Source: a virus
IMG/VR virus record: IMGVR_UViG_3300042987_003044
Location: 1-53,451 of that record
Direction: 5' to 3' (one strand)
DNA length: 53,451 bases
A program made the position numbers and the translations under genes. The notes under the pieces were generated by a model. The model did not search any database. It saw nothing but the letters and a program-made list of their open reading frames with translations, and had not been told where the DNA came from. Below are positions 4,010 to 17,471 of the stretch, in pieces; the first letter of the stretch is position 1; every line of letters begins with the position of its first letter.

Positions 4010-5425
4010 TCACATAAGGTTACGAACAGTAACTCTTCTGTAATAGCGGTTTGTATTTGCCTCAAGACCACCAAGACCTTGACCATCGGCAACGGAACCC
4101 TTAGCGAATGGGTTTGCAACCATTCCATAACGGGTCTTAAAGCCAATCTTAGGCTGGAAGGTGTCCTGACCAACGGCACGAACCATTTGGAGAGGAACAT
4201 ATGGGCAATAGAAGAGACCAGCATCATATGGGCTGGAACCCTTATATCCTACAACATAGTAGTGATCATTAGAAACGTTCGCAGCATAAGGATCGATATA
4301 AACACGATACTTACCTTGGAGAACACCGGCAAAGGTGTTGCCAGTATCATCAACGTTGAGGTTGGCGTTAAGTGCTGGGGTATAATCAAGTACTCCTGCC
4401 ATGGTGAGTGCCGAAGCAACGTCAGCAGAGCACATGATCATATTGCCCTTTCCTCTACGAGTTCTTTGTGCAATTGCGTTAGCATCGCGCTCGATTTGGA
4501 AAATTAGACCCTTGAACTTCTCAACCGACCAACGACCGTTGGAATCAACATCAAGGTCAAAAATACCAGATGTTGCAACGTTGTTAGCAGCGCCTGGCTC
4601 AGCAACCTTATAAATGGTACGGATGACTTCTCTGTTGATTTCAGCGAGAATCTCAGTCGAAAGCAGGTTTGCAAGCTCAGCTTCGGCATTCAGACCGTGA
4701 ATTGCCTTAAGGTCCTGAGCGAGCTCAAGTGAGTATTCTGCCTTCAGAGCACGAGTCTTAGCAGTAACGGTGACTTTCTCAATTGAGAATGCCATCTCGT
4801 TGAAAGTCTCAGTGCTACCAAGGTTCTCTGCGTCATCAGTACGCATACCCTGACCAACATTATAGTTGGTTACAGTTTGACCATCAGGGTTAAGAACACC
4901 AGGATTTGATCCTTGTTGAGCACCTGTAGTACCAAATCCTACACTAACTCCGGAGTTAGTTCCTTGGTTATATGTACCAGTCAGATTTCCAGGACCTGCC
5001 TGACCAGAGAATGCTGTATCAACTTCATTAAAGAGTGCTTCAGTGCCACTCTGGTTAGTATAGCGCGAGCGCATCGCAAAGATGAGTCCAGTAGGACCAT
5101 TCATTGGTTGAACGCCAGCGAGGTCATAAGCGACCAGATTAGGCATAGAACGTCTGATCAGTGAGATCAGAACAGGATCAAAACCTGCTACTGGACCGCC
5201 AGCAGTGGCATCTCCACTAAATCCAGGATTTCCGCTGCTTGACTGGGTGTTAACTGTTGGTGCTTCCGAAAGGAATGCTCTCTCCTCACGGAGTTCTCTT
5301 TCTTGGTTTTCTAGCAGGATAGCAGTTACCGCTCTACGATGTGAATCTTTGATCGTGTCGAGCCCTGAGTAATCCAGGATAGGTGCCCACTTCTCCTGCA
5401 GGTATTCTGAATTGAATCCTTGCAT
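4010..5425 (-). CDS. gp23: gp23 major capsid protein
   Basis: A 471-residue HK97-fold major capsid protein of the T4 gp23 family. Recognisable parts are the N-terminal region MQGFNSEYLQEKWAPILD, the internal ALKAEYSLELAQDLKAIHGL, and NREVIRTIYKVAE, CPYVPLQMVRAVG and TRYGMVANP toward the C-terminus. In T4 the N-terminal part is removed by the gp21 protease at maturation, so residues 1-65 or so are likely lost here too. The gene has a good Shine-Dalgarno (GAGG) and its own terminator. It is richer in GC than its neighbours, as is common for a very highly expressed gene. Confidence 0.97.
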   Translation of the reverse strand: MQGFNSEYLQEKWAPILDYSGLDTIKDSHRRAVTAILLENQERELREERAFLSEAPTVNTQSSSGNPGFSGDATAGGPVAGFDPVLISLIRRSMPNLVAYDLAGVQPMNGPTGLIFAMRSRYTNQSGTEALFNEVDTAFSGQAGPGNLTGTYNQGTNSGVSVGFGTTGAQQGSNPGVLNPDGQTVTNYNVGQGMRTDDAENLGSTETFNEMAFSIEKVTVTAKTRALKAEYSLELAQDLKAIHGLNAEAELANLLSTEILAEINREVIRTIYKVAEPGAANNVATSGIFDLDVDSNGRWSVEKFKGLIFQIERDANAIAQRTRRGKGNMIMCSADVASALTMAGVLDYTPALNANLNVDDTGNTFAGVLQGKYRVYIDPYAANVSNDHYYVVGYKGSSPYDAGLFYCPYVPLQMVRAVGQDTFQPKIGFKTRYGMVANPFAKGSVADGQGLGGLEANTNRYYRRVTVRNLM

Positions 5426-6688: not shown

Positions 6689-7339
6689 TTAAAGATTTGA
6701 AATAAACTCTTGAAAGAGATTAATTTTATGTTCTTCCAGTAATTTCTGATCAACTAAAGTGTTGATTCTCTTTTTAGTTTGTTCGGCAAGTTTTTCACGA
6801 AGAATTCCACCTTCCCAAACCCACTCTTTCCCTTCCATAATTCCTGAAACAAAAGCATCTGGAGCAGAGGGATCTGCAACAATATCTGCAGCAGTGGCAA
6901 GCATAAAGTCTTCACCGACAATTTTATGACCTTCATTAGTCATTTTAAGTGATCCAACACCACGAGAAGAAACACCTAACATTACACCTTCAGAGATGAG
7001 AGACTTAGCAATCTTACCCATTGGAGTTTCAAGAAGTTGTGCCTTACCTCTAAAATTATTTCCTTCTTGAGTGAGAGAAACAATTTTATGAGAAACTCTA
7101 TCAAGATTTACGGTTGGACCATCTGGATGTCCCAATTCACCCAAAGCACGACCTTTTTGAATAAAACTTTCATTATATCTCTTTACTTCACGGGAAAGAG
7201 TTTCCATAGGATACATTCTTCCATTACGATTGCAGATGTTTCCCTGAAGAAAAACACCTTCAATGTACATTTTTTTAGATGCACCTTTTCCTTCGGTAAT
7301 GAATTTTACCTTTGATACTTCTTCTGTGATTAGTTTCAT
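6689..7339 (-). CDS. gp21: gp21 prohead core protease
   Basis: A 216-residue serine protease of the T4 gp21/herpes assemblin type. Family features are the start MKLITEEVSKVKFITE, the block NRNGRMYP, the putative catalytic His in ALGELGHPDGP (H71) and the serine in LGVSSRGVGS (S124 or S125). Further on it has EDFMLATAADIVADPSAPDA. It processes scaffold and capsid proteins in the prohead and then digests itself. The length equals T4 gp21 (212). The ATG follows the preceding stop codon by 1-4 bp, so the head genes form one operon. Confidence 0.95.
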   Translation of the reverse strand: MKLITEEVSKVKFITEGKGASKKMYIEGVFLQGNICNRNGRMYPMETLSREVKRYNESFIQKGRALGELGHPDGPTVNLDRVSHKIVSLTQEGNNFRGKAQLLETPMGKIAKSLISEGVMLGVSSRGVGSLKMTNEGHKIVGEDFMLATAADIVADPSAPDAFVSGIMEGKEWVWEGGILREKLAEQTKKRINTLVDQKLLEEHKINLFQEFISNL

Positions 7340-14287: not shown

Positions 14288-15625
14288 TTAGTAAATCTCT
14301 CTCCATCTTATAGAAACTCCAACATTAGTACTGGTGTCGCTTATATTACTTACACGAACTGAAAAGATTTCCGAATCTGTGGAGTCATAATTTTGAGACA
14401 AGTAATTTTTCTTTGAAGTTGGCCCCGATTGAGCATCGGTAGTTGTTGCTGATGGTTTTTGTGAGTTTTGACTTTCTCCCGCAGCATATCCACCCATAAA
14501 ATCTTCAAAATACGTTACACTAATTCCAGTTGCACTTTGATTATATTCTACAACTGATTCATCATTTTCAGAAACCCAGGTTCCTGTGGGGTTAATGCCA
14601 ACAGAGCTTCTCAATTTTACGACTTCATATTTTACATTTCCGCCATTACTAAACACCGTAACATCTTCAAGTTTTACTGTTGCTCTATTTGGATATCCCT
14701 TAAATGAATTCTTCAATCTAATTGCAATAATTGGAACTGTAGTGCCGATACCAACAGTTCTAAGATTTGTCGTATGTGAAAATTCTCTACCAGACTCAGT
14801 ATATCCACCTTCACTCATTACAGTAGAGCAGATTTGAATAAAAGAACCACCGGCACCTACTTGTGTACCGGTATTTTTAACCTCACATCTTACTGGAAGA
14901 TTTGGGTTAGACATGTACACTGTTGGAAGATGGTTTGAATTGTAAAATTCATGAGCAATAATATTATAACCATCTATACTAAACCCACAACGAACTCTAC
15001 CAACTCCTAACCACTCAAAATCCGTCATGAATAATTGGGTTTTGGTAATATCTAAACTGAAACCAGAAGGTCCATTTCCGTCCAGAGTATCTTTATTCCA
15101 TTCAGATTGAGTAACTCTTCTATCTGAAGCAATCCCAGTCACATAAGATCTAATTACAAAACTCAAAGTTCCATCTGGTGCTTGCTCAAAGAAAATTCCA
15201 TCTCTATCATCAAAATATCCAGTTCTTTTATAGACATTCTGTTGTGCTGCGCCAAAGTTAAATGTTGAATAAATTACCTGGGATTTGCCAGGCATGTAAT
15301 GATGATATCTCTTTGTTTGGTGAATACAGTATCCGTCAGTACTAATTCCTGAACTTAAAATTGCTGCTGCCTGATTTACATCAAAAGTGACCGTTGCTCC
15401 AGTTCCCACCTTCACATCTGTAAAATCAGGATCAATAGAATAAAGATGTTTATAGTCCCCAAGTGTATAAGGACTTGATGATCTTAGTCTCCCAAAAGCA
15501 TCACCAGAAAATCCTTGTCCGAGATCTTCATAAATTTCTCCATGCTTATTAGCCCTCATATAAACTTCAAAGAGGGATCTTTCTTGATTTAAATAATCCT
15601 GTTGATTTTTATTCCACTGAGCCAT
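14288..15625 (-). CDS. virion structural protein, fibre-like, conserved in cyanophages
   Basis: A 445-residue protein starting MAQWNKNQQDYLNQERSLFE. The block FGRLRSSSPYTLGDYKHLYS and later YHHYMPGKSQVIYSTFNFG resemble a family seen in many T4-like marine phages, usually called structural protein. The rest is beta-rich with many T, S and G residues, compatible with a jelly-roll or fibre domain. It lies between the CTS-like gene and gp17 in the head/tail cluster. It has a clear Shine-Dalgarno (AGAGG). Its exact place in the virion is unknown. Confidence 0.6.
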   Translation of the reverse strand: MAQWNKNQQDYLNQERSLFEVYMRANKHGEIYEDLGQGFSGDAFGRLRSSSPYTLGDYKHLYSIDPDFTDVKVGTGATVTFDVNQAAAILSSGISTDGYCIHQTKRYHHYMPGKSQVIYSTFNFGAAQQNVYKRTGYFDDRDGIFFEQAPDGTLSFVIRSYVTGIASDRRVTQSEWNKDTLDGNGPSGFSLDITKTQLFMTDFEWLGVGRVRCGFSIDGYNIIAHEFYNSNHLPTVYMSNPNLPVRCEVKNTGTQVGAGGSFIQICSTVMSEGGYTESGREFSHTTNLRTVGIGTTVPIIAIRLKNSFKGYPNRATVKLEDVTVFSNGGNVKYEVVKLRSSVGINPTGTWVSENDESVVEYNQSATGISVTYFEDFMGGYAAGESQNSQKPSATTTDAQSGPTSKKNYLSQNYDSTDSEIFSVRVSNISDTSTNVGVSIRWREIY

Positions 15626-15639
15626 AGTTTAATCCTCTA

Positions 15640-15951
15640 TTATTCAGACCATGAGAGTCTTTCTGGTTGATATCTTTGTGCGGTTTTAACTTTGACCGAA
15701 CTAGTTGAATTTGGATAAATGTTATGGACAATTGCACCAGGATATTCATCTTGTAATTGTTCAGCAAGTTGATTTTTTGAAATCATTTTACCCTCAACTT
15801 CCATACGATATATCTTTCCTTGCCACATTACGTCTGCAGTAAAAGATTCCTTAGCAACCTCTGGTTCAGTTGAAGCATTCATATAAAGATTTCCATTGAA
15901 ATCTCCAGCAATATTAATACTTTCTGATAAAAATTGTTGAAAACTTTTCAT
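15640..15951 (-). CDS. small protein with T4-like capsid-targeting N-terminus
   Basis: A 103-residue protein. The start at 15951 is chosen because its ATG overlaps the previous stop codon (TAATG); a start 9 bp further up exists. The first ten residues, MKSFQQFLSE, closely match the capsid-targeting sequence of T4 internal protein III (MKTYQEFIAE): five identities and four conservative changes. In T4 this peptide directs a protein into the prohead and is then clipped by gp21. The remaining part (VMWQGKIYRMEVEGKMISKN) looks like a small alpha/beta domain. It may therefore be an internal head protein delivered with the DNA (inference). Confidence 0.55.
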   Translation of the reverse strand: MKSFQQFLSESINIAGDFNGNLYMNASTEPEVAKESFTADVMWQGKIYRMEVEGKMISKNQLAEQLQDEYPGAIVHNIYPNSTSSVKVKTAQRYQPERLSWSE

Positions 15952-17471
15952 TAGTTGCATCTCCAGCGACGTAGTGCTTTGTTAATTCTTGAATCTGGAT
16001 CCCTTGCAGTTTCTGCAGAAGTTAGTTTTGACTTCATACCTTTCATACGACGGCAAAAATTCTTACGACGATTTGCTCTTTTTCCAGAAGGATTTTTTTC
16101 AGTTACTGCTGTTTGAAGTTTTGAACCAGGATTTTCACGGCGATAAGCATTTACTGCTGCCTGACTCAGACCATCAGTTTTATCTTTACGATTGACTTTT
16201 TGCCAATCTTCATTAACCAAATCAGCACCAATACCTTCAGTTGGTTGTAGAGGATCTGGTTTTATTAAATCAACAAACTCAAAAGTTGTTGGATTTAATT
16301 TTAATTCTTCTCTCCAGTTTGAATAATTTTCTGGTACGCAATTGGGGACCAATTTCTTGCCTTTCTTTTTCATACCAACTTTCTTATATCCAGACCAACA
16401 ATCTTCATCTACACTATGTTCACCACTATCAAGATAATCTGCGGCAGAATCTAAATAATCTGCTGCCTTAGTAATTTTTGATTGGACCCATGCCTCAATA
16501 TTACCTTCACCCTTCATCTTTTTCTTAAGTCTTTTCGCTGCAGAAATAATTGTGGCAATTTCTGAACGAGCCATAGAGTATTCATGATCTGATTCTTTGG
16601 ACTCATTTGCTGGATGAGGTCTATTTGGATTATATTTAATCTGATTAGAAGTCAAAATATCATTACTTTCAACTTTTGGTGGTAATGAATACATGTCCCA
16701 AAATTTTCCACCATATCTACATTCTTTTCTAGATTCATTTTTTTCACATTTGGGGCAATATCTAATCATTTCAATTTCTTCTGATTTTGTTCCCCAATTG
16801 TCTGCTCCAACTTTACGACATTTAACTAGTGCTCCAGATGCATATGCACTAGGCCAAACATCATATCTTGATTTTACTTTGCGATAGCAAGCATCTTTTT
16901 TACCACTACCTTTACCTGGTTTGTCTTTTACTTCGGTTAAGTCCATTTCTTCTGTTTTAACATTTGTTGGCTTGGCACCACCAGTTTTTTCTGGTTGATT
17001 TGGATCTTGTCTATTTTTTCTACTTCTTGCTCTTTCTTCCTCTTCATCCGAAAGATTTGCTGCCATTTTAGAACTTCCACATTTTGGTGTTGAAGATTGA
17101 CCTTCTTGACGAGCACATGGTTTTCCTGCCCATTTACCACCAAGTTGGACCCATCCTCTTTTACCATCAGAAGATTTTGACTTATTGAACCAATCATGCA
17201 AACCTTCATCACCAGATTTAGTTTCTTCTTTTACATCTTTAAATTTTTTATGATGCTTTTTAGCATCAACTTCCATTTTTTTCAAACGAGTATAATAATC
17301 TGGAATTTCATCGAGATGTTGTAATGCAATATATTTTGCCAATTCAGCATCCTTAGTATGTTCATGTTCAATTTTTTGTCCCATACTCAACTGTTTTCTA
17401 ATAAAAGAAACGTCAAGTCTATGTTTTTTGGCAATTTCTTCTACAGTCCTGTGGGATTTAAATTTATTCAC
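15951..17471 (-). CDS. multi-domain cysteine-containing protein (DUF mosaic)
   Basis: A 506-residue basic protein made of several small modules: an N-terminal DUF5661-like helical unit (HRTVEEIAKKHRLDVSFIRK, about residues 7-70); a Cys-containing GLHDWFNKS...GGKWAGKPCAR unit (about 95-130); KKDACYRKVKSRYDVWPSAY (about 190-225); a CPKC zinc-ribbon-like part (about 237-265); a CWSGYKKVGMKKKGKK module; and a C-terminal FCRRMKGMKSKLTSAETARD unit. Such modules occur scattered in marine phages and giant viruses; I name DUF5661 from memory of the pattern only. The start is GTG. A CTAAATA element lies 23 bp upstream. Function is unknown, though its place among head/packaging genes suggests a virion or packaging role. 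Confidence 0.6.
   Translation of the reverse strand: MNKFKSHRTVEEIAKKHRLDVSFIRKQLSMGQKIEHEHTKDAELAKYIALQHLDEIPDYYTRLKKMEVDAKKHHKKFKDVKEETKSGDEGLHDWFNKSKSSDGKRGWVQLGGKWAGKPCARQEGQSSTPKCGSSKMAANLSDEEEERARSRKNRQDPNQPEKTGGAKPTNVKTEEMDLTEVKDKPGKGSGKKDACYRKVKSRYDVWPSAYASGALVKCRKVGADNWGTKSEEIEMIRYCPKCEKNESRKECRYGGKFWDMYSLPPKVESNDILTSNQIKYNPNRPHPANESKESDHEYSMARSEIATIISAAKRLKKKMKGEGNIEAWVQSKITKAADYLDSAADYLDSGEHSVDEDCWSGYKKVGMKKKGKKLVPNCVPENYSNWREELKLNPTTFEFVDLIKPDPLQPTEGIGADLVNEDWQKVNRKDKTDGLSQAAVNAYRRENPGSKLQTAVTEKNPSGKRANRRKNFCRRMKGMKSKLTSAETARDPDSRINKALRRWRCN

Follow-up and report, generated by a model that had tools for sequence, protein, structure and literature searches.

Does a small gene lying among the head and packaging genes of a virus encode a protein addressed to the prohead, and what becomes of that protein? 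The window analysed here is the whole of a 53,451-nucleotide stretch of viral DNA (IMG/VR record IMGVR_UViG_3300042987_003044), in which the initial annotation had drawn attention to positions 15640-15951. The protein encoded there begins MKSFQQFLSE, a decapeptide that had been likened to the T4 capsid targeting sequence (CTS), MKTYQEFIAE. These coordinates proved correct; the strand, which had been left unstated, is minus. The arrow (↓) denotes a site of cleavage by the prohead protease gp21, expected or predicted.

The gene and its surroundings

The gene starts with an ATG at 15951 and its stop codon ends at 15640. Its 103-residue product begins MKSFQQFLSESINIAGDFNGNLYMN and, with the predicted cut, reads MKSFQQFLSE↓SINIAGDFNG at the N-terminus. 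The protein matches PHROG 1742, for which the function annotation is "unknown", and a Pfam search matched no family to it. Significant matches to the family came from 135 phage records, all named as cyanophages. Two features support the start at 15951: a GGAG 9 nt upstream, and a TAATG in which the stop codon of the upstream gene shares one base with the ATG. An alternative in-frame ATG at 15960 (MQLMKSF...), which directly abuts the GGAG, is unlikely. The features considered below are as follows.

15640-15951, minus: PHROG 1742 gene, 103 aa, MKSFQQFLSE↓SINIAGDFNGNLYMN... (translation; phrog_1742, E 1.9e-39)
15922-15951, minus: putative CTS, residues 1-10, with predicted gp21 site LSE↓S at its end (31/31 conservation, pattern control and T4 residue roles; PMC9026906)
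15961-15964, minus: Shine-Dalgarno GGAG, 9 nt 5' of the ATG (sequence)
15877-15921, minus: conserved segment SINIAGDFNGNLYMN, residues 11-25 (family conservation; AlphaFold2 confidence is low there)
15712-15846, minus: predicted folded core, beta-beta-alpha-beta, residues 36-80 (AlphaFold2, pLDDT ~90 from residue 41)
15951-17471, minus: upstream neighbour, 506 aa, basic (pI 9.5), DUF5661 ... DUF6321 modules with hydrophobic-x-E before modules (Pfam, PHROG, sites; its homologue SSCSM1_29 carries a virion label)
14288-15625, minus: downstream neighbour, phrog_1645 virion structural protein (PHROG)
6689-7339, minus: gp21 prohead protease, Peptidase_S77 (Pfam, E 3.9e-37)
5264-5275, minus: expected gp21 site of gp23, FLSE↓A, residues 51-54 (by-eye comparison with T4 FLTE↓A and S-SCSM1 FLAE↓A)

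The window holds gp21, gp22 and gp23 (PF03420, PF25623 and PF07068), which bears out the earlier description of the gene as lying among head and packaging genes with gp21 in the same window. Among the inspected records, the place of the family gene between structural genes is fixed. It lies directly 3' of a modular DUF5661/DUF6321 protein (phrog_727/3477) or of a small gene found there, and a structural protein gene (phrog_1645 in the window) follows downstream. In most of these records the overlap with the upstream gene is a single base and the gene is located between the terminase subunits.

Tag-like sequences were also seen at two C-termini: the gp21 of the window ends NLFQEFISNL (window 6689-6721), and SSCSM1_93 (L091:41626-41835), labelled as a virion protein, ends FKEFLEYIE.

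Conservation of the decapeptide and pattern control

In T4, targeting by the CTS depends mainly on residues 4 and 7 and processing on residues 8 and 10, and gp21 cuts after L/I-x-E (PMC9026906). The corresponding positions were compared across 31 non-redundant family members (<88% identity). Position 4 is F or Y, position 7 is F and position 10 is E in all 31, and position 8 is L or I in 29 and M in the other two; positions 3, 5 and 6 are variable. Because family members share ancestry, 31 of 31 does not amount to 31 independent events.

The pattern MKx[FY]xxF[hydrophobic]xE was also sought at the DNA level, using the degenerate sequence ATGAARNNNTWYNNNNNNTTYNTNNNNGAR with the reversed pattern as control. 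In 18 whole phage records (2.8 Mb), the pattern gave 45 matches and the reversed pattern none. Note that 17 of the 18 records were fetched because they contain the family, so that the 16 of the 45 matches contributed by the family itself are not independent; the remaining matches head unrelated proteins and do count as independent. With the functional positions kept throughout the family and the control empty, the proposed resemblance to the T4 sequence is confirmed.

From T4 itself the pattern recovers two proteins starting MKTYQEFIAE, of 100 and 193 aa, which from their lengths we take to be IPII and IPIII. It also matches gp61.1 (L337:167-331, 54 aa, MKTFKEFIKE), annotated as hypothetical. 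One match each was obtained for the T4-like phages Syn9, S-SM1 and S-PRM1, two for S-CRM01, and no strict-pattern match in the scanned S-PM2 record. The non-T4 cyanophages P-SSP7, Syn5 and S-CBS2 gave none. A scan of the 53-kb window found no gene-sized ORF with a CTS-type N-terminus besides the PHROG 1742 gene.

Tagged proteins outside the family

When IMG/VR was scanned with the CTS pattern, the matches listed comprised at least 80 loci with at least 89 ORFs, at least 80 of them ≥40 aa; nine of the ORFs among these listed matches belong to the family itself. Other tagged ORFs among them match Zeta_toxin/AAA_33, adenylate kinase, GNAT, SET, DnaJ and DUF6267, and one type joins a CTP_transf_like domain to a Zeta-like kinase domain. 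The first set of matches also included tagged DPBB lytic-transglycosylase-like and HIPIP-like proteins. Among 23 sampled contigs, five have gp21, and all five of these have a plausible tagged ORF; since the contigs are fragments, this co-occurrence is only suggestive.

In aquatic virus contigs (L139, L157, L169, L177, L185, L198, L202, L204, L098 and L127) the same decapeptide heads enzymes and domains of unrelated kinds: Zeta-like kinase, DUF6267, adenylate kinase, HAD, GNAT, DnaJ, SET, HIPIP-like and lytic-transglycosylase-like. Two small tagged proteins, at L181:10529-11047 (minus) and L198:3736-4149 (plus), resemble ADP-ribosyltransferases by eye (YHGT motif), though Pfam gave no match for either; T4 packages an ADP-ribosyltransferase, Alt. 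Phage Sf-FS3 (L102, PV340856.1 near 111880) has a second, 82-aa short-linker paralogue of the family protein, MKSFQKFLGE, far from the head operon.

Of the annotated genes of cyanophage S-SCSM1, the strict pattern picks out only SSCSM1_30, which belongs to the family, and SSCSM1_91, which encodes NMNAT (L091:38819-40048; MKSFLQFLKE). The S-SM1 NMNAT begins MKKFSAFLNE, and the NMNAT/cytidylyltransferase of T4-like cyanophages at L268, L267, L108 and L109 opens with a CTS-like decapeptide; in S-SZBM1 the tag is one residue shorter (MRFRQFIIEA). The NMNAT/cytidylyltransferase was found by mass spectrometry in virions of S-SCSM1, S-SM1 and S-SZBM1 (PMC9602691, PMC3037559 and PMC9146016). Cyanophage particles therefore carry a protein with a putative CTS tag.

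Expected cleavage sites in gp23, fused copies and modular proteins

Comparison with T4 (SFLTE↓AEI) and S-SCSM1 (SFLAE↓APT) places the expected gp21 site of the window's gp23 at RAFLSE↓APT, and FLSE↓ is common to this site and the end of the PHROG 1742 decapeptide. Copies of the family's domain are also found as parts of multi-module proteins, in the family to which the upstream neighbour belongs. These fused copies are without the aromatic tag. Of 15 distinct contexts, 14 have a [LIVMF]xE motif directly before the domain (shuffling each context gave an expectation of 5.7); examples are VEIEE↓SVRVPAKTGN in SSCSM1_29, which is labelled as a virion protein, and NVSE↓NYLRIQTRGT in L193. On the simplest reading, a self-standing copy would need both an address and a cut site, and a copy within a larger head protein the cut site only.

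The same motif lies upstream of modules B, C and D of the neighbour family in 21 of 23, 18 of 19 and 23 of 24 contexts, respectively (5-7 expected). Six other P1 residues were tried at the position of Glu, and all fell well short of these counts. For module A there was no clear excess of hydrophobic-x-E sites. From their sequences, the modular neighbour proteins look as if they were a head polyprotein processed by gp21. Some start with a tag of their own (L153, L193, L248 and SSZBM1_192, MKTFKQYITE); the window's upstream neighbour (15951-17471) has none at its N-terminus. Basic proteins built from interchangeable small modules after hydrophobic-x-E were observed at window 15951-17471, in L141, L153, L165, L180, L189, L193, L194, L203 and L216, and in S-PRM1 gp010 (L088).

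Only the short-linker Sf-FS3 paralogue aligns with the fused copies without gaps. Other standalone forms have a conserved segment, S[IV]NI.GDFNGNLY.N (window 15877-15921), between the cut site and the core, and an ungapped register between these long-linker forms and the fused copies is accordingly not claimed. Few parts of the family are as well conserved as this segment; the fused copies lack it.

The mature domain

An AlphaFold2 model built from a 24-sequence alignment (mean pLDDT 67) predicts a short helix at residues 4-9, disorder to about residue 32 and a beta-beta-alpha-beta core at residues 36-80. The top PDB match by Foldseek was T7 Gp2 on Escherichia coli RNA polymerase (4lk0_M; probability 0.99, E 0.12, TM by target 0.64, TM by query 0.36). 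Against viral models, the family itself, DUF6321 proteins and the S-SCSM1 virion protein came first, with two annotated RNA polymerase inhibitors lower. Alignment of the family with T7 Gp2 by hhalign gave a probability of 0.1 (percent scale), that is, no profile similarity, and the Pfam RNA polymerase inhibitor family did not match the PHROG 1742 domain. Homology with T7 Gp2 is thus unsupported. Because hhalign was negative and the fold is small, a Gp2-like action of the modelled domain may be taken as a lead only.

Kinship with the S-SCSM1 "RNA polymerase inhibitor" SSCSM1_279 was likewise unsupported by hhalign. A match of the family profile to RPA70 (E 0.01) was taken as chance, and a PDB sequence search with the mature domain gave nothing meaningful, its matches to a SAVED protein and to repeat proteins (SAKe6) being short. 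The mature protein is acidic by computation, and one internal LxE (LAE, residues 62-64) falls in a predicted helix.

Virion proteomes

In the S-SCSM1 record, the family homologue SSCSM1_30 has no virion label, and both neighbours, SSCSM1_29 and SSCSM1_31, are labelled. We counted 48 virion-protein labels in this record (the paper reports 45 detected proteins); they include small proteins of 61-112 aa, the smallest being 61 aa. The homologue SSZBM1_191 is absent from the S-SZBM1 virion list (PMC9146016 Table 1, 30 proteins), where its downstream neighbour SSZBM1_190 is listed. By computation, the mature form of SSZBM1_191 would yield six tryptic peptides, each 7-30 residues long. A protein at low copy may escape mass spectrometry, and absence by this method is no proof.

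T4 internal proteins (IPs) are present at about 360 copies (PMC9026906), and both virion lists lack the homologues, which makes an IP-like abundance of the PHROG 1742 protein in virions unlikely. T4 gp68 is present at 240 copies in proheads and at none in mature heads (PMC9026906); a protein can thus abound in proheads and yet be absent from mature heads. The initial annotation had also proposed that the protein may be packaged in the head and injected as a possible internal effector, a reading that absence from virions would refute. With both homologues missing from the two published lists, although low-copy protein may have escaped detection, this test counts against residence in the finished virion, and such residence and injection are so far unsupported; the part concerning targeting and trimming is well supported.

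Proposed mechanism and fate

We infer from the sequences that the PHROG 1742 protein is probably targeted to the prohead by a working T4-type CTS and cut by gp21. Support for both steps is good, because positions 4, 7, 8 and 10 are conserved, the pattern control is clean, gp23 shares FLSE↓, a tagged NMNAT occurs in virions, the gene keeps its place between structural genes, and the fused copies keep the hydrophobic-x-E site when the tag is gone. The amphipathic decapeptide, through F4 and F7, would dock the protein on the gp22-type prohead core. Cleavage by gp21 after Glu10 (LSE↓S) would then release, inside the maturing head, a 93-aa mature protein with its small beta-beta-alpha-beta domain. 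The protein may be regarded as a single-module, self-addressed version of the domain found in the adjacent family's multi-module head proteins, in which gp21-type sites would flank the modules.

It is very improbable that the N-terminus is a family-specific helix whose likeness to the T4 CTS is coincidental. Only ten residues are involved and shared descent would explain their conservation within the family, but many unrelated families of proteins begin with this decapeptide, the 45 matches stand against none for the reversed pattern, and the functional positions are those of T4. For a protein targeted and cut as proposed, the absence from two virion lists, the copy number of T4 IPs and the gp68 precedent divide its fate between assembly and low-copy injection. 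It is plausible, at somewhat short of an even chance, that the decapeptide brings a head-assembly (core) factor to the prohead core, where it is cut by gp21, works in assembly with its two neighbours and is then mostly lost, as is T4 gp68 (PMC9026906). Two virion proteomes that list the neighbours without the homologue point this way, as do the conserved place inside the head and packaging operon with its translational coupling and the acidic mature protein, unlike the basic T4 IPs. A single N-terminal site followed by a folded remainder, with LAE 62-64 in a predicted helix, is nevertheless nearer to IPs than to multiply cut core proteins, and SSCSM1_29, which contains the same domain, is a labelled virion protein.

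That a few copies of the mature domain instead remain in the head and pass into the host along with the DNA, acting for example on host RNA polymerase or host defence in the manner of T4 Alt and IPI-III, is possible and rather doubtful. Tagged T4 IPs are injected (PMC9026906 and PMC12373910), which speaks for such a role given the CTS and cut site, and the first PDB match was to Gp2 on RNA polymerase. The standalone protein is missing from the virion lists of two relatives, though, the Gp2 match (E 0.12) found no echo in hhalign or Pfam and concerns a small and common fold, and the well-conserved gene in the head operon is unlike the variable IP loci.

Implications for T4-like aquatic viruses

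Packaging by way of a CTS has been described in T4 and phages close to it (coliphages). A full-text literature search turned up a single T4 review and no account of such packaging in cyanophages. What would be newer, if confirmed, is how widely the tag is used and that modular proteins are cut by gp21. Tentatively, and with nearly even chances, the CTS may be a general, swappable address label in T4-like cyanophages and related aquatic viruses that loads many enzymes and small modules into the prohead, alongside head "polyproteins" with interchangeable modules cut by gp21 at hydrophobic-x-E. The cargo on this reading would include NMNAT, Zeta-like kinases, adenylate kinase, GNAT, SET, HAD phosphatase, DnaJ, lytic-transglycosylase-like, HIPIP-like and DUF6267 proteins, and the PHROG 1742 family.

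If the CTS works in cyanophages as in T4, a ten-residue pattern predicts head-loaded proteins of abundant aquatic viruses, and the label would allow the proteins packaged by uncultured viruses to be told from their sequences. A route into virions would be offered for NMNAT and similar enzymes, whose way there had lacked an explanation, and the question of what cyanophages deliver at infection would become testable from sequence. The PHROG 1742 case serves as a warning that a tag need not mean abundance in the finished virion.

Comparison with known systems

T4 IPI, IPII and IPIII share with PHROG 1742 an N-terminal decapeptide with an aromatic residue at 4, Phe at 7, Ile or Leu at 8 and Glu at 10, a gp21-type L/I-x-E↓ site, a short mature protein, and a phage that has gp21, gp22 and gp23. 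Beyond the tag there is no sequence similarity, and the IPs are basic whereas the mature PHROG 1742 protein is acidic. Unlike the IP genes, the PHROG 1742 gene is located in a head and packaging operon between gp16 and gp17, is conserved there, and has homologues missing from two virion proteomes. With the T4 core proteins gp67, gp68 and gp22 it would share exposure to the same core and to gp21; these proteins are cut at several sites or removed, whereas in PHROG 1742 one predicted N-terminal site dominates. T7 Gp2 may share the small beta-beta-alpha-beta arrangement, to judge from Foldseek (E 0.12), with no profile similarity by hhalign. The cyanophage NMNAT/cytidylyltransferase (T4-GC190) is like PHROG 1742 in bearing the tag in T4-like cyanophages (MKSFLQFLKE and MKKFSAFLNE) and differs in being an enzyme of ~400 aa that has repeatedly been found in virions by mass spectrometry (PMC3037559, PMC9602691 and PMC9146016).
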